Positions 790 through 7,991 of a DNA stretch of 64,000 nucleotides are shown here, in pieces. Location of the stretch: contig JAIUPO010000019.1 of NCBI GenBank assembly GCA_020160805.1, positions 1-64,000 of the forward strand, in the 5' to 3' direction. Each line of letters starts with the position of its first letter. The stretch's first letter is position 1. The translations under genes were made by a program, and so were the position numbers. Source of the stretch: Actinomycetota bacterium (GTDB lineage: Bacteria > Actinomycetota > Actinomycetes > Actinomycetales > Dermatophilaceae). The notes under the pieces are model-generated. The model searched no databases. It saw nothing but the letters and a program-made list of their open reading frames with translations, and was not told the origin of the DNA.

Positions 790-1308
790 TTACCCATTGT
801 CCGTATCGAAGAGAACCTCGAACGAGACGCGCTCGATCTCCGCCTCACCGCCTGGACCGATCAGGATGACCATGTTTGCGCCGGCGTGTCGTGCGCTGGG
901 CACGAGGATCCCGCCGCGGCCGATCCACGCGATCGCGCCGCCGACCTTCCGGCACGCCGAATGGTCGTCAGCGTCGACGTCCGCCATGGTCAGCCCTGCA
1001 GCCGACAGCGCTTCGGGCGCGGTCAGGTCGACCAGGTCGTCGACGTCGACCGCGAGTTCGTACAGCACCCGCCGTCGGAAGATTCGCCTCGGCTGAACGT
1101 CGATCGCGTGCTGCCCCTCCGCGATCGCCGTTTCTCGGTCCAGTGCCGTATAGATGGCGCCCACCCCGGGCGGGTTCCACCTCGCTCCCCCGGTGTTGAT
1201 CCGTTCCGGGGCGTACTCGTTGAACATGTGCCGCCACACGTGACCCTGCCAACTCCGCACAGGCAGAGCCTCGACGGCATCGAGGAAAGCAGGGTCGAAC
1301 GTGGCCAT
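790..1308 (-). CDS. RES-domain toxin of a RES/Xre toxin-antitoxin pair
   Basis: This 172-residue protein has the RES signature around residues 40-63 (G-A-R-W-N-P-P-G-V-G-A-I-Y, then E-T-A-I-A-E). RES toxins such as MbcT and ParT are fold relatives of ADP-ribosyltransferases that attack NAD+ or modify a host enzyme. The conserved Arg and the downstream Glu are present and the length is normal, so it looks intact. Its start lies 2 bp after the stop of the Xre-type antitoxin gene, the standard antitoxin-first arrangement. Expected role: plasmid stabilisation or abortive defence. Which biochemical activity it has (NADase or transferase) cannot be read from the sequence. Confidence 0.88.
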   Translation of the reverse strand: MATFDPAFLDAVEALPVRSWQGHVWRHMFNEYAPERINTGGARWNPPGVGAIYTALDRETAIAEGQHAIDVQPRRIFRRRVLYELAVDVDDLVDLTAPEALSAAGLTMADVDADDHSACRKVGGAIAWIGRGGILVPSARHAGANMVILIGPGGEAEIERVSFEVLFDTDNG

Positions 1309-1310
1309 GA

Positions 1311-1649
1311 TTAGACGAAGGCCCCATCTCGAAGCTGATCGATCAGCGCCAACACATCGTCAGCATTACCGGACTGGATACGGTCGGCCGGCGACTCACC
1401 ATTCAACAGACGGTGCCGACTGAACAACCACAACCGTGCCTCCTCGGGACCGTAAAACTCTCCCAACTGATCGGTGAGCCACTCCAACGTCAGCAGCTGC
1501 TGCAGCTTCGCCGAGTGTGGATCGACCTTCCCCTGTTGCCACCGTGAAATCGTCTGCGGAGTGGTATCCAGCAGCTGCGCGATTTCCCTGCTCTGCACAC
1601 CGGCATTGGCCTTGATCGAGTCCAGGCGTGCCGCGACTGCGCTAGCCAT
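1311..1649 (-). CDS. Xre/MbcA/ParS-type antitoxin (DUF2384)
   Basis: The 112-residue protein has an N-terminal helix-turn-helix (about residues 20-42, reading I-A-Q-L-L-D-T-T-P-Q-T-I-S-R-W) and a C-terminal DUF2384-like toxin-binding region (about 65-112, E-E-A-R-L-W-L-F-S through L-I-D-Q-L-R-D-G-A-F). This is the antitoxin architecture paired with RES toxins. It neutralises the toxin and usually represses its own operon. It sits between a 424-residue barrel-like gene 34 bp upstream and the RES gene 2 bp downstream, so all three could be one transcript. Confidence 0.88.
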   Translation of the reverse strand: MASAVAARLDSIKANAGVQSREIAQLLDTTPQTISRWQQGKVDPHSAKLQQLLTLEWLTDQLGEFYGPEEARLWLFSRHRLLNGESPADRIQSGNADDVLALIDQLRDGAFV

Positions 1650-1683
1650 GATTTCCTTCTCTCCTTGTTCCTTCCATCTTCGT

Positions 1684-2958
1684 TCAGGCGCTCGGACGCA
1701 CTCGGATGCGGCGGCCGGCCGCCGGCGGGCTGATCGTGAAGCTGGAATGCTCCTCGAGATCGGCCCCCAGCGTCCCGCGCCAGGAGTCGAGCCGTTTTCG
1801 CACGCGCGCCAGCGAGGGCTCCTGGTCCGCCGAGCGCATCGCGCGATCCGACGCGGGACGCAAGAAGTTCTCCATGTAGTGCCCCGGTCGCAACGACTCC
1901 GGCATGGCGGTCAGCTCGGCCACCTCGCGGGCCCGCTGGCGCAGGAAGTGCCGGCGCGGGTTTCCCACCATGTCCGACCATCCCCGCGGGCAGCAGTTCG
2001 TGTCTTGGCAGCCGTGCAGCGCCTTCATGCCTCGCTTGGCGAAGAACTCGCGCGCCACAGACGCCTCAACGAACGCGCCCAGCTGGTGCAGGTAGACCCG
2101 TGGCGGCGGTGAAAACGGCTTGTTGTCCGGGCGGGGCTGCCGCAGCAGCCCGTCGAGGTTGACGGTATCCGTGAAGGTGACGCCTGACTCGATGCCGCCT
2201 ACTGCACCGAAGGCGAGCAGCGCGACCCCGACGCTTCCACTGTGCTCGGCGACCACTGGAATGCCCAGCGCGTGCAACTGGCGAGCCAGCTGCAGATAGC
2301 GCTTTAGGACCAGCGGCCCGCTGTTCCCTGTGCCGAAGGGGTGCAGCCGCAGCCACACCGCGTCAACCGGGACGCTCTGCAACTGCGACATCAGCCGGGT
2401 CATCATCGCCGGATTCGTCAGCGACGACGCCTTCACCATGACCGGGTAGTAGATGGGCGCCTGCGTCAGTTCGAGCTCATCCAACATCCCCCGTAAGGAC
2501 CGGGTGAGCGTGGCGTCGATGTCCCACCACGGCGACGTCGGACTGTTCAGGAAATGGGTCGGGGCCAGCACCGCGCTCATCTGCGCCTCGGCTGCGTACT
2601 CGGCCAGGCTTCGCACCGACCGCGCTCCTGCCGCGTTGGCGAGGTTCAACGGCGAATGCATGCCGCCCTCCGCCGCCCACGGCAGGTCCGAGATTCCCCG
2701 GAGCACGTACCCGCTCGGGCTGGACAGCTCCAGACTCTTCGAATCAAGGATGGTCTCGACGCCCGCGGTATTCGCCTCGACGACCAGAGGCATCTGGCGC
2801 TCGGAGTGAACAGGATTGATGATCAGGCCCGACCCGCTCCCTCGCCCCTCAGTCAACGCCTGCGCGAGCACGGTGTGGTCGTTGTATCCCGGACGAATGA
2901 AATTGCCGAGTGGCTCCGGTGCTGGCCGGAGGGTGCGGGGTTGAAGCGTGGTCGCCAT
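1684..2958 (-). CDS. Uncharacterised barrel-like protein upstream of RES/Xre
   Basis: The function of this 424-residue protein is not recognised. Alternating hydrophobic strands and helices with phrases such as A-V-W-L-R-L-H-P-F-G-T-G and I-P-V-V-A-E-H-S-G suggest a TIM-barrel-like fold. Residues about 315-325 hold G-C-Q-D-T-N-C-C-P-R-G, a tight Cys cluster that could bind a metal, followed by a basic helical tail. It loosely recalls tRNA-guanine transglycosylase-like enzymes, but no family signature was confirmed. It lies 34 bp upstream of the antitoxin on the same strand, so a third component of the TA or defence locus is possible. The 97 bp between 2958 and 3056 is a divergent promoter region. 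Confidence 0.7.
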   Translation of the reverse strand: MATTLQPRTLRPAPEPLGNFIRPGYNDHTVLAQALTEGRGSGSGLIINPVHSERQMPLVVEANTAGVETILDSKSLELSSPSGYVLRGISDLPWAAEGGMHSPLNLANAAGARSVRSLAEYAAEAQMSAVLAPTHFLNSPTSPWWDIDATLTRSLRGMLDELELTQAPIYYPVMVKASSLTNPAMMTRLMSQLQSVPVDAVWLRLHPFGTGNSGPLVLKRYLQLARQLHALGIPVVAEHSGSVGVALLAFGAVGGIESGVTFTDTVNLDGLLRQPRPDNKPFSPPPRVYLHQLGAFVEASVAREFFAKRGMKALHGCQDTNCCPRGWSDMVGNPRRHFLRQRAREVAELTAMPESLRPGHYMENFLRPASDRAMRSADQEPSLARVRKRLDSWRGTLGADLEEHSSFTISPPAAGRRIRVRPSA

Positions 2959-3055
2959 AGCGCCTCCTCTATCCCGAAAAGATTACCACATTGATACACA
3001 CAACAATGAACATTTTGATAAACACGGGGTAGGCTGTGACTGATAAGGAGCCAAT

Positions 3056-3301
3056 ATGCCCAACAACAACCGCCGCGACGTCTCACCCAATAGCGGCGAC
3101 GGATGGAAAGTCACCCGGCCAGGTGCGAAGACGCCCACCGCGAAAGCACCCACTCAGAGCGGCGCCGAGAAGATCGCGAAAAAGCAGGTCTCCGATGCCG
3201 GCGGCGGGCAGGTCTACATCCGGACGCCGAAGGGCGTCATCCGCGACGCCGACACCGTCAAGCCAGGCAACGAATCGCCCAAACGCGACACGAGGCACTG
3301 A
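3056..3301 (+). CDS. DUF2188-family small protein
   Basis: The 81-residue protein matches by eye the DUF2188 pattern: an N-terminal D-G-W-K-V-x-R-P-G-A block, a basic A-E-K-I-A-K-K segment, G-G-G-x-V-Y-I-R-T-P-K-G-x-I-R-D-A-D-T, and a closing P-G-N-x-x-P-x-R-D. The family is small, basic and of unknown function, and is common in actinobacteria and on plasmids. A strong ribosome-binding site (AAGGAG) lies 7 bases before the ATG, which fixes the start. It is transcribed divergently from the barrel-like gene. Confidence 0.8.
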   Translation: MPNNNRRDVSPNSGDGWKVTRPGAKTPTAKAPTQSGAEKIAKKQVSDAGGGQVYIRTPKGVIRDADTVKPGNESPKRDTRH

Positions 3302-3664: not shown

Positions 3665-5415
3665 TCAGGGGTGGGCATGCCCGACCCTCGTCATCCACGC
3701 GAGATCGTCGTAGGCGGACTCCGTCGCGTGGTCGTGTGTGCACACGAAGTGGTTGGCGCGGATGTCGTCGGCGACCGCGTCGACCTTCGCCTTGATCGCC
3801 GCGACCAGCGCCGGATTAACGGGATCGTTTGTGCTCTTGCCCTGGTCGTCGAGGTTGAGGATCTGGATGCGGTCGGCGTTGTCACCGGTGAGTTGCTCGT
3901 ACCCGAGTGCGTAGATGGAGAGCTGGTCCTTCGTGACCAGCTCTGCCTGGGATGCCTGTGTCGACTTGAAATCAACGATCGCGGTTTCGCCGGTCTCCAG
4001 CGACTTGATGAGGTCGATGCGACCGTTCACTGTGACTCCGGGGGAGATTTCGACCTCGATCACCTTCTCCGAGTGGATTGTGCGCGTGAGGTCGTCGCCG
4101 TGGCGGTCGAAGTATCGGTCGATTGCCTTGATCGCTGACTCCCGCAGCTGTTCGCGCAGCGTCGGGTAGGCGTAGGGGGTGTGCAGGTGCCGGTCGACGA
4201 GTGATTCGATCTCAGACTTCGTCGGCACGTCTCCGGCAAGGGCGCGCTTGTGCATCTCAGAAAGCACATCGTGCAGACCTTTTCCGTAGCCGAGTGCCTC
4301 ATGGATGGGCGGGTTGAAGCCGTACATGAATCGCAGCTTGAACTGGTAAGGACACTCGATCAGGTACTTGAGCTCGCTGAACGAGATGGCGATGTTCGGC
4401 GTCTCCAGCTTTGGTGTCGGAGTGAGTCGGGCAGCAGCTGGGAGCCCTTCGTCTGTGGTCGACATCCACGTTGAGGCGGTGCAGTGCAGGTAGAAGTCGG
4501 ACGGCTTCTTGTACAGCTTTGAGTCCCCGGGGGCGTAAGACACATACAGGTACTTCTGCGCCCGGGTGACTGCGACATAGAAAAGCCGGGTCTCGTCGGA
4601 CCGGTTCACCTTGTACCGGGCGCCGTTCGGCACGGCGATCTCGGGCACGAGGTGCGGATGGTCTGCGTGCCACCCGGCGCCTTGATCGGGAACCGATTCG
4701 CACGCAGGAATGGGACAAACACTGCCGGCCACTGCAGGCCCTTTGACCGGTGCACGGTCGAAATCACGACAGCATCGGGTGCGACGTAGCCGGCGTCGTC
4801 GTCCGCTTCCTCGTAGACGCCGGGCGCCTGGAACGTGAGGAAGCCGGCGAAGGCTTCGTACTTGGATTTCGGGCTGGACGAGAAGTGGATGGTCTCGAAG
4901 TCGGAGATCACTTGCGAGAACTTGCCCAGCTGGTACATCACGAGCTCGCCGCGGCGCGGGTCGCCGGGGATCGTGTCTTCCCGCAGGTCGAGCGCTTCGA
5001 GAACTCTGAGGAAGAGCCGCTGGATGTTGTACACGCCCCACCGCGTGCTCGCAGTGAAGTCTGCACCATCGTCAAGTGCGCGCATCGCGGCTGACCACTT
5101 CGACACGTCAGGAATCAGCTTCGCCGCATCCCACAGCTCGCGGAGATCCGTCGCAGTGATCTCGCCAAGCATGTAGCGGAACAACCCAACACATGCCTGA
5201 ATCTCGACCGCGTCGAAGAGCCGCGCGAGGCCCTTGACGATGAATGGGATGTCCCGCCGCTTCAGCTCGTCGACAAGGTCGTCCGCGTCCTTGACCGAGC
5301 GGAACAGCACCGCGCAATCGGACCAAGACAGACCCCGCGGTTCCGATCCTGGACGGTCGGTGAACGGTAGGCCTTGCAGCTCAACGATTCGCTCAACGAT
5401 CCAGTCAAGGATGCC
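3665..5415 (-). pseudogene. 5'-truncated, frameshifted UvrD-like helicase with PD-(D/E)XK nuclease domain
   Basis: Two frames join to give the C-terminal part of a superfamily 1 UvrD/PcrA-like helicase. The 5' frame contains W-S-D-C-A-V-L-F-R-S and, further on, S-T-V-H-R-S-K-G-L-Q-W (motif V region). The 3' frame has R-L-F-Y-V-A-V-T-R-A (motif VI) and then a RecB/AddB-like nuclease domain with I-V-D-F-K-S-T. The frames change at C4673-C4675: one extra G on the coding strand (GGG to GGGG) would restore A-P-G-W-H-A-D. The N-terminal half with Walker A is missing, because an in-frame stop at 5416-5418 precedes the conserved start of the fragment. It is probably non-functional even if the indel is an error. 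Confidence 0.8.
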
Positions 5416-5757: not shown

Positions 5758-6189
5758 CTAGCTCGGCAGCAGCCGCACGTCAACGAACATGCCGACAGGG
5801 GGTGCCGCGTACGGCAGCGGCTCGCCCTGGGCGTTGGTATCGCGGGAATCCGCGAACGGTCCGTCGGACGACATCAACATCCGCATGTGGTGGTCGGCGT
5901 GGTCACGCCACCAGACGCTCATTCCGAAAGTCGGCTCGAGGCGCAGCGCCTCCCAGGAGCGCCAGAGCGCGTCGAGACGACTGATCGCCTCCGGGGACTT
6001 CCACCACTCGGCCGACCACCGGTTCGGCCCCTGCGGGCCAACCCGGCGGGTGTAGGTGTAGCGCAGCCGTTCGCGCACGAACTCGTCGACCGAGCCAAAA
6101 AACAGGGTCGGCTCGGCCGCGGCGCCCGGTGCCGGCGGAGGAACCTCAGGAGTCGCCTCTTCATCCCATTCTTTGACGTCGCTGGTCAC
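5758..6189 (-). CDS. DUF4913-family protein of the conjugation cluster
   Basis: The 143-residue protein matches DUF4913 by pattern: F-V-x-E-x-L-R-x-x-Y-x-R, W-S-A-E-W-W-K-S-P-E-A-I-x-R-L-D-A-L-W-R-S-W-E, W-W-R-D-H-A-D-H-H-M. This small Trp-rich soluble family recurs at the end of actinobacterial T4SS operons next to the VirD4-like coupling protein. Its start overlaps that gene's stop by 4 bp, so they are translationally coupled. Its role is unknown. The context suggests an accessory of the coupling protein. Confidence 0.85.
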   Translation of the reverse strand: MTSDVKEWDEEATPEVPPPAPGAAAEPTLFFGSVDEFVRERLRYTYTRRVGPQGPNRWSAEWWKSPEAISRLDALWRSWEALRLEPTFGMSVWWRDHADHHMRMLMSSDGPFADSRDTNAQGEPLPYAAPPVGMFVDVRLLPS

Positions 6190-7991
6190 TTTTCGCTGTC
6201 CTGATCGCTCTCAGGGGGAATCGTGGTCACCGGAACGGCGATTTGCTGGGTGCTGGTGGTCCCAGCCGTCCCAGACGGATCGTGCGCTGCGATCGACGCA
6301 CGCACCGCCGCGGCGTGCTTGCCCTTCATCCAGGGCACCGTCTCGATGAGAGCGGCCGGCGTTCCTGAAGACAACATCACTGCGCGGCCGCGTGGCAGCG
6401 CCGAGAGTTCGGCCGCGTCCAGGATGCGCTCACGGCGCAGCTGATGGTTTGTCGACCTGATCCCGCGGTTGTAGCTCACGGAAGCCGTCGACTTGTCGTA
6501 GTCCCCTACGAGCTCGGACAGCTCGCGCAGAAACTCAGCCTCAGCCACTCCCCCGAGGTACAGCTTCACGTTCGACGCCGACCAAAGCTTTCGCATGCCC
6601 TCTCGACCGAAGACAACCTGCCCCTGCGCCCAGGACTGGAACAGCGACATGATCGGGATCCCACGCGAACCGTAATGCGAGTAGAGGTCGGGCAGATTCT
6701 TCCACCGGCACACATTCGCGGCCTCGTCCAAGACGACCAACATCGGTACCGTGAGGCGTCCGCCAGCCTGACCGGTGGCGAACTCCTCCGCAGCCTCGAC
6801 AACTGCCGCGGTGAGTGCAGTGACCAGAGCGCCAGCGCTGCCCTGGCCCTCCTTTGAGAGCGAGTAGAGGGTGCCGGTACCGCGCACGAAGGCATCCGGA
6901 TCAAACTGCGGCCGGCGATCGCCGGAGAAGTTGCTTCCCAGCGGTGCGACCCAGCGCTCGATCGCCCGGATCTTCAAACAAGACGCCATCTGCCGTGCAG
7001 TGCCGTACACACCACCACGTTGCTTCTCCGGCGACATGATGACGCCCTGCACGTCGGCGGCGATCAGGTCGTAGTCGTGGGCGCGCAGCACATCGACAGG
7101 TTCCTGATTGGTCGGCTCGGACAGCCAGGTGAACACCTGAGTGATCGGTCGGTTCTGCAGCGCGGCCGCGAGCAGCATGCCTGCGAGCAGGTCTTGGCCC
7201 GCGGGCTCGAAAAACGCATCCTGCACCGCACCGTCCGCCCTCGCGGAGGAGGCGAAGTGCTCGGCGAGCTTGAACGCCTTCACGTCGTCCTTGACATAGG
7301 ACAGCGGGTTCCACCACCACGTGGGCTGTTCGAGCGCGATCGCCTGCGGGTCGAAGATCCACACTTGGCCAAGCTGCGCCCGGGGGTCGCGCGTCGCATC
7401 GACCGTGTCGCGCTTGTTCGACGTCGTCACGACAGCGCCGGGGGCTTCGAGAATTGCTGGGATCACCAAGGTCGTTGTCTTGCCGACGCGAGGGCCGGCC
7501 AGAGCGATCATGACGTACTCCCAGAGCGCATAGAGCTGTTGGCCGCCGGGGATCGAGCGTCCGAGCGGGATCCCCGGCGCGCCCTGCACGCCCAGCCGCT
7601 GTGCCGTACGGCTTGCGCCCTTGCGGCCCAGCTCGGAAAGGTCGCGACCCCGAGCCAGATAAGCAGCCGACCGGTCGACCCGGGTGCGCTTGCCCCGGAC
7701 ACGACCGATCAGGATGCCGAGACCGGTGGCGATCGCCAGAAGGATGACGGCGAAGACGACGGTCAGCCAGGTCGACGAAGCGGGCCAGACAACTCGGCCC
7801 CGGATGAGGCCGAAGACGACCTCGAGCGGGTTGCGGGTCAGAGACGGGTTCACACCGTCAAGCCGTGAGCCGATCGTCACTGATCCCCACAGCACGCCGA
7901 CGATGCACAGAGCGAGCACGACGACAATGCCGATCAGGATCGTCGTGGAGTCCACGCGTCCCGGCTCGGGTCGACGATTCGTCTGGCTCAC
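6186..7991 (-). CDS. VirD4/TraG-type type IV coupling protein
   Basis: The 601-residue membrane ATPase links the relaxase-DNA complex to the secretion channel. Residues about 17-40 and 70-98 form two membrane segments. Walker A is G-P-R-V-G-K-T-T (166-173). A TraM-recognition/TraG-D region follows, with L-V-V-L-D-E-A-A-N-V-C as Walker B and a downstream S-R-G-I-P-I-M-S-L-F-Q-S-W-A-Q segment. Length and order are normal for actinobacterial coupling proteins. It overlaps the VirB4-like gene upstream and the DUF4913 gene downstream by 4 bp each. Its expected partner is the relaxase at 33.6-35.2 kb. Confidence 0.93.
   Translation of the reverse strand: MSQTNRRPEPGRVDSTTILIGIVVVLALCIVGVLWGSVTIGSRLDGVNPSLTRNPLEVVFGLIRGRVVWPASSTWLTVVFAVILLAIATGLGILIGRVRGKRTRVDRSAAYLARGRDLSELGRKGASRTAQRLGVQGAPGIPLGRSIPGGQQLYALWEYVMIALAGPRVGKTTTLVIPAILEAPGAVVTTSNKRDTVDATRDPRAQLGQVWIFDPQAIALEQPTWWWNPLSYVKDDVKAFKLAEHFASSARADGAVQDAFFEPAGQDLLAGMLLAAALQNRPITQVFTWLSEPTNQEPVDVLRAHDYDLIAADVQGVIMSPEKQRGGVYGTARQMASCLKIRAIERWVAPLGSNFSGDRRPQFDPDAFVRGTGTLYSLSKEGQGSAGALVTALTAAVVEAAEEFATGQAGGRLTVPMLVVLDEAANVCRWKNLPDLYSHYGSRGIPIMSLFQSWAQGQVVFGREGMRKLWSASNVKLYLGGVAEAEFLRELSELVGDYDKSTASVSYNRGIRSTNHQLRRERILDAAELSALPRGRAVMLSSGTPAALIETVPWMKGKHAAAVRASIAAHDPSGTAGTTSTQQIAVPVTTIPPESDQDSEK

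Follow-up and report, generated by a model that had tools for sequence, protein, structure and literature searches.

A conserved third gene as a predicted dedicated component of one subgroup of RES-Xre toxin-antitoxin modules

Background

RES-Xre toxin-antitoxin systems are usually, if not by strict definition, two-gene modules. For several members of the family, consumption of NAD+ by the RES toxin as well as neutralisation of the toxin and repression by the Xre antitoxin are reported in the available text of PMC12457610, PMC11535050 and PMC7291234. MbcT-MbcA of Mycobacterium tuberculosis (Rv1989c-Rv1990c), likewise composed of a RES NAD+ phosphorylase and an Xre antitoxin, is described in the available part of PMC7291234 as a two-gene operon, with no barrel partner. 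NatR-NatT, the P. putida RES-Xre pair, ParST and GndRX also consist of RES and Xre, with no third gene described in the accessible sections of PMC11535050 and PMC12457610. Neither did the literature that we searched, as far as the accessible text of PMC2701414, PMC12457610, PMC11535050, PMC8165232 and PMC7291234 goes, describe a third gene with RES-Xre; this search was confined to papers readable without subscription, to which the original MbcTA paper, for example, does not belong. A dedicated third gene is found in another type II toxin-antitoxin system, the M. tuberculosis TAC (available text of PMC9098466). According to the accessible portion of PMC11535050, the physiological role of the RES toxin family is unsettled and none of its members has been implicated in immunity.

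Here we report on a locus in a 64,000-nucleotide stretch of DNA (the window) from an actinomycetotal genome of the Dermatophilaceae. The first base of the window is also that of its contig, which is 95 kb long. New here is a three-gene version of RES-Xre, the two-gene toxin-antitoxin being already known.

Methods

Relatives of the 424-aa third protein were searched with the protein itself among plasmids, MAG contigs, same-phylum genomes, phages and viral contigs; the three same-phylum samples (396, 396 and 394 genomes) overlap. Profiles of the barrel, Xre and RES proteins were built and all loci were scanned in six frames. Twenty-one of the 35 plasmid records with relatives were analysed, the other 14 being siblings of species or strains among those 21. 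L001, L023 and L042 were counted as the window, and the following were counted once: L030=L006, L050=L005, L058=L004, L086=L026, L035=L031, L101=L095 and L102=L098, where L031/L035 and L098/L102 are one G1024 place. L103, whose coordinates are identical to those of L018, is apparently the same record and was retained in the Mycobacterium count. Dropped before counting were L007, L032 and L033, which the barrel profile did not match, and L034 (E 0.003 over 121 positions, short flanks without RES/Xre). The Pfam RES search covered 246 Actinomycetota genomes, of which 52 matched; 30 loci were listed, one of them the window's. With the RES protein of the M. chubuense plasmid as query (E up to 1e-20), 16 of 278 Mycobacterium genomes matched at 17 places. 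The AlphaFold inputs were three alignment rows.

Results and discussion

The window encodes a RES-domain protein of 172 aa at 790..1308 of the minus strand, a predicted NAD+-consuming toxin (Pfam RES, PF08808, E 2e-20; 73.9 bits at a cut-off of 23.2). Separated from it by 2 bp, adjacent and co-directional, lies the gene of a 112-aa Xre/MbcA/ParS-type antitoxin and likely repressor (1311..1649, minus strand; Pfam Xre_MbcA_ParS_C, PF09722, E 8e-8; 32.6 bits at a cut-off of 24.5). The narrower NCBIfam subfamily models NF049844/NF049845 match below their own cut-offs. Both proteins are more distant relatives of the pair in PDB 6fkg, the RES protein matching MbcT (E 1e-11) and the Xre protein MbcA (E 2e-18). 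The window RES protein carries Arg26, Arg43, Glu64 and Ser138, so that with its RES domain, its adjacent co-directional Xre gene and its Arg/Glu/Ser residues the pair has the features by which a RES-Xre type II toxin-antitoxin would be recognised from sequence. Both Arg and the Glu are kept in all 29 trio loci compared and the Ser in 19 of them, with Ala or Asn in the other ten. The Ser position holds Ala in L014, L015, L018, L020, L021, L026, L027, L028 and L040 and Asn in L011; MbcT, as aligned, also has Ala there, and this residue is thus not kept throughout the clade. A PF08808 search found one RES gene in the source genome, the window's.

The third gene, a 424-codon ORF with an ATG start, is located at 1684..2958 of the minus strand and is transcribed ahead of Xre and RES, with 34 bp between its stop and the Xre start. 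These exact coordinates agree with the first-pass annotation, which had placed the gene on the same strand 34 bp upstream of the antitoxin. A GAGGAGG ribosome-binding site precedes the ATG. The intergenic region at 2959..3055 (minus strand), likely the promoter/operator of the trio, contains TGTTCAT and a 5-bp inverted repeat (CATTG/CAATG), and one stretch of it is partly kept in the alignment with two relatives, L002 and L008. Compared with the 74%-identical relative in L002, differences over 331 codons fall mostly on the third codon position (73/44/170 at first, second and third positions). This bias, together with the end-to-end alignment of relatives down to about 20% identity, argues that the ORF is a real gene.

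Upstream of the trio and divergent from it lies a DUF2188 gene (3056-3301, Pfam E 5e-13); DUF2188 genes are found beside or near the trio also in L040 and L036. Further out, ORFs 4606-5310 and 3665-5041 both match UvrD_C and seem to be the parts of a split UvrD-type helicase with PD-(D/E)XK nuclease, which may reflect a frameshift in a RecB-like gene neighbouring the trio. A TraG/TraD-type conjugation coupling protein gene occupies 6186-7991, which suggests that this end of the contig belongs to a conjugative element. ORF 7988-9601 matches PADLOC mad8 (E 2e-9).

The 424-aa protein belongs to no library family above cut-off. At E up to 10, searches of Pfam, PADLOC and PHROGs gave no match for it; NCBIfam gave one model at chance level (E 0.006), well short of its cut-off, and the PDB no relative by sequence and nothing significant by sequence profile. 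Relatives were detected in 35 plasmid records, in one MAG contig labelled Acidobacteria (L002) and in 6 of 396 (the window's own genome included), 3 of 396 and 10 of 394 same-phylum genomes. A phage origin was considered and rejected, as neither 50,697 phage records nor four viral-contig scans held a relative. Among 27 aligned members G241, G251 and G259 are invariant, R22 and P133 near-invariant, and H28, D72, C317, C322 and H337 mostly conserved. No family in Pfam, NCBIfam or PADLOC matched more than one of the 27 (best E 0.001); in PADLOC 2.0.0 two families matched one member each (E 0.015 and 0.05) and none the window protein. The relatives make up a genuine family without a name, spread over Actinomycetota and Alphaproteobacteria. 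A family of about 400 residues is herewith defined which is absent from the four libraries searched (Pfam, NCBIfam, PADLOC, PHROGs).

Xre and RES genes were found adjacent to each other and with the barrel gene in all 30 distinct near-intact barrel loci. In 29 of these both are read in one frame; in the thirtieth, L006, Xre is present, RES is broken into three frames, and the barrel gene, which contains a stop, does not cover the beginning of the model. An assembly gap runs through the barrel gene of L002. The gene order is co-directional in 14 loci and divergent in 16. The 21 plasmid records comprise 18 near-intact trios, one split barrel gene (M. rufum, L019) and two remnants (Rhodococcus). 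In M. rufum, IS256 interrupts the barrel gene, whereas the neighbouring Xre and RES genes are intact; the two Rhodococcus plasmids carry a barrel remnant only, without RES/Xre. The trio is a conserved unit. A widespread occurrence of the gene outside RES/Xre contexts, which would have spoken against the three-part system proposed at first, was not seen among the loci scanned, where the two Rhodococcus remnants and four weak, unconfirmed rows were the only such cases. The association of the barrel gene with RES/Xre far exceeds chance.

Distance matrices of 29 trios correlate closely (barrel-Xre 0.925, barrel-RES 0.921, Xre-RES 0.931), and none of 2000 permutations reached the observed values. 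At the level of sequence distances, this agreement shows long joint inheritance, not contact; it is no proof of interaction, since linked genes on one mobile element agree anyway. Mere mobile-element linkage, with the third gene a passenger that has no functional tie to RES/Xre, might account for such agreement, and many loci are indeed plasmid-borne beside integrases and transposases; repABC and conjugation genes also occur among the mobile-element neighbours. Against this, adjacency is kept over two phyla, in two orientations and down to about 20% identity, the barrel gene co-decays with RES, and other neighbours vary among loci. We regard a passenger gene as very unlikely. The trio occurs both on plasmids and on chromosomes, in two phyla, and the comparison identifies the third gene as a predicted dedicated component of one RES-Xre subgroup, set apart from the usual two-gene module by its conservation there.

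The reverse dependence is weak. Among the 29 other RES loci listed from the Actinomycetota search, a near-intact barrel gene was found in two (L050, L058) and none by profile in 26, within flanks of about 1.5 kb, so that genes farther away are missed. The remaining locus, L056 (2363-2953), encodes a shortened version of 197 aa, which retains the N-terminal region and the Cys/His part and has no barrel core, next to open RES and Xre frames. The expectation that RES/Xre pairs mostly stand alone is thereby borne out. One of the 26, L066, shows by eye an apparent N-terminal barrel remnant. A barrel gene implies RES/Xre; RES/Xre rarely implies a barrel gene.

In mycobacteria this dependence can be followed close to MbcT-MbcA. 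RES and Xre from the trio on the M. chubuense plasmid are close relatives of MbcT and MbcA of M. tuberculosis (6fkg), to which they align along their entire length (E 7e-102 and 2e-63, respectively). At 11 of the 17 Mycobacterium places RES has an open frame that covers 149 to 175 of the 177 model positions, and all 11 have an intact divergent barrel gene, as far as the locus reaches. At all six places with a broken RES gene the barrel gene is broken (five) or absent (one), Xre being intact at four. Several of the broken copies resemble one allele, and the co-decayed loci look like fewer than six independent events. Over all loci compared, the third gene is retained only together with RES and decays along with it, and RES/Xre can persist without an intact barrel gene, as in L019 and L056.

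This pattern bears on the possibility that Xre needs the barrel protein to neutralise RES, as in tripartite toxin-antitoxin-chaperone systems. Such a co-antitoxin or chaperone would fit a dedicated, co-inherited gene which leads the operon in 14 of the 30 loci. A cell with an intact toxin should not, however, survive the loss of an obligatory antitoxin, whereas it should survive that of a sensor or activator, and RES and Xre are intact where the barrel gene is split (M. rufum) or shortened (L056) and stand without any third gene in 26 of the 29 other listed RES loci. A SecB-type Pfam domain was not found in the 27 members; the third protein of TAC is SecB-like and required by its antitoxin, whereas the third gene of the trio can be lost. 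A co-antitoxin is accordingly unlikely, and the loci with open RES/Xre frames and a lost barrel gene (L019, L056 and the 26) favour a sensor/activator or an auxiliary enzyme.

GACAAA is a repeated element of the MbcA operator according to the available text of PMC7291234. An exact copy lies between the Xre and barrel genes in each of three mycobacterial trios (L015, L018 and L040), and Xre may therefore repress both sides. Rv1990A, annotated as a fragment beside mbcA, we take to be a candidate barrel remnant in M. tuberculosis. Its induction at low pH along with Rv1989c and Rv1990c is reported in the accessible part of PMC10178195.

The barrel style seen in the first reading of the protein is plausible from its pattern of strands and helices, the AlphaFold model of its middle part and the Foldseek matches. 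AlphaFold reached a pLDDT of 38.8 and a pTM of 0.39 for the full-length protein and 46.9 and 0.45 for residues 20-355; best modelled is the middle, where strands and helices alternate. The top Foldseek matches are mostly TIM barrels from many unrelated families (PdxJ, TIM, DHDPS, chitinases, TGT) with low TM-scores. VIA-align returned mostly chitinase-type barrels with Z up to 8.5, near the background stated by the tool for models without a clear match. A closer naming of the fold was dropped, as the matches of both tools are spread over unrelated TIM barrels. The fold search advised at the outset thus returned the expected fold class, and these low-confidence models suggest that the third protein is a TIM barrel, without pointing to any one family.

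Behind the final strand of the predicted barrel the window protein has a Cys/His set, C-x4-C-C-x13-H. It comprises the Cys cluster GCQDTNCC (residues 316-323; 1990..2013, minus strand) and the conserved His337 (1948..1950, minus strand), a candidate further metal ligand. At position 317, where 26 members have a residue, 23 have Cys; of 27 members, 22 have C322, 14 have C323 and 23 have H337. The set might form a metal site. In four loci of the Roseobacter group (L012, L013, L017, L039) it is missing and the trio is kept.

tRNA-guanine transglycosylases (TGT, PF01702) carry Cys/His residues after the last strand, with the zinc motif CxCxxC...H. The first-pass annotation had allowed for base modification, and a TGT/DpdA-like protein, with RES punishing the absence of a mark, would agree with the TIM-barrel-like fold, the Cys/His residues behind its last strand and the TGT structures among the weak Foldseek matches. 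The ligand spacing is, however, unlike that of TGT, and the site is lost in the four trio-keeping loci named above. PF01702 did not match any of the 27 members at E up to 1, and hhalign against ten TGTs gave a probability of 0.1% (E 0.49). Nor did a PF01702 search find a TGT gene in the source genome. Base-modification ability is hence unsupported, and we consider it scarcely credible.

An auxiliary enzyme is a further reading. The barrel protein might convert a compound derived from NAD+ (ADP-ribose-1''-phosphate, nicotinamide) or a signal metabolite, and so tune or reverse RES instead of serving as a sensor. The TIM-barrel-like fold with its conserved polar residues (R22, H28, D72) and the joint decay with RES are in keeping with this, as is the inhibition of NatT by nicotinamide (available text of PMC11535050). 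Sequence searches of Pfam, NCBIfam and PDB, on the other hand, matched no NAD-salvage or other enzyme family. We hold such an enzyme possible, if doubtful.

Some neighbours of the trio are defence genes. In Celeribacter (L012, 9639-12145) the end of RES and the beginning of qatA, the Qat ATPase gene, share 4 bp, an overlap that may link the trio to a defence system; a DruA gene lies near the trio in Roseivivax and a restriction endonuclease gene in Pukyongiella. These neighbours hint at a possible defence role.

Conclusions

We propose a three-component RES-Xre module with the third protein as sensor or activator, and give this reading a probability of about 45%. By analogy with the family, RES would deplete NAD+ and stop growth, and Xre would bind RES and repress the locus; the dedicated 424-aa partner, probably a TIM barrel, would respond to some ligand or stress and in this way govern when Xre releases RES. 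Whether as sensor or as enzyme, the role rests on a common fold class, which the poor fold model can only suggest.

More speculatively, the RES-Xre branch that includes the MbcTA ancestor may have been a three-part NAD+-depleting stress or immune device, whose barrel-fold sensor released the toxin and was lost from MbcTA-like pairs. We advance this with considerable reserve. If true, loss of the sensor would explain the obscure trigger of MbcTA and similar two-gene relatives. The third protein, being dedicated and co-inherited, is in any case a concrete candidate control switch for RES toxins, and it sits in the clade of the structurally solved MbcT-MbcA pair.
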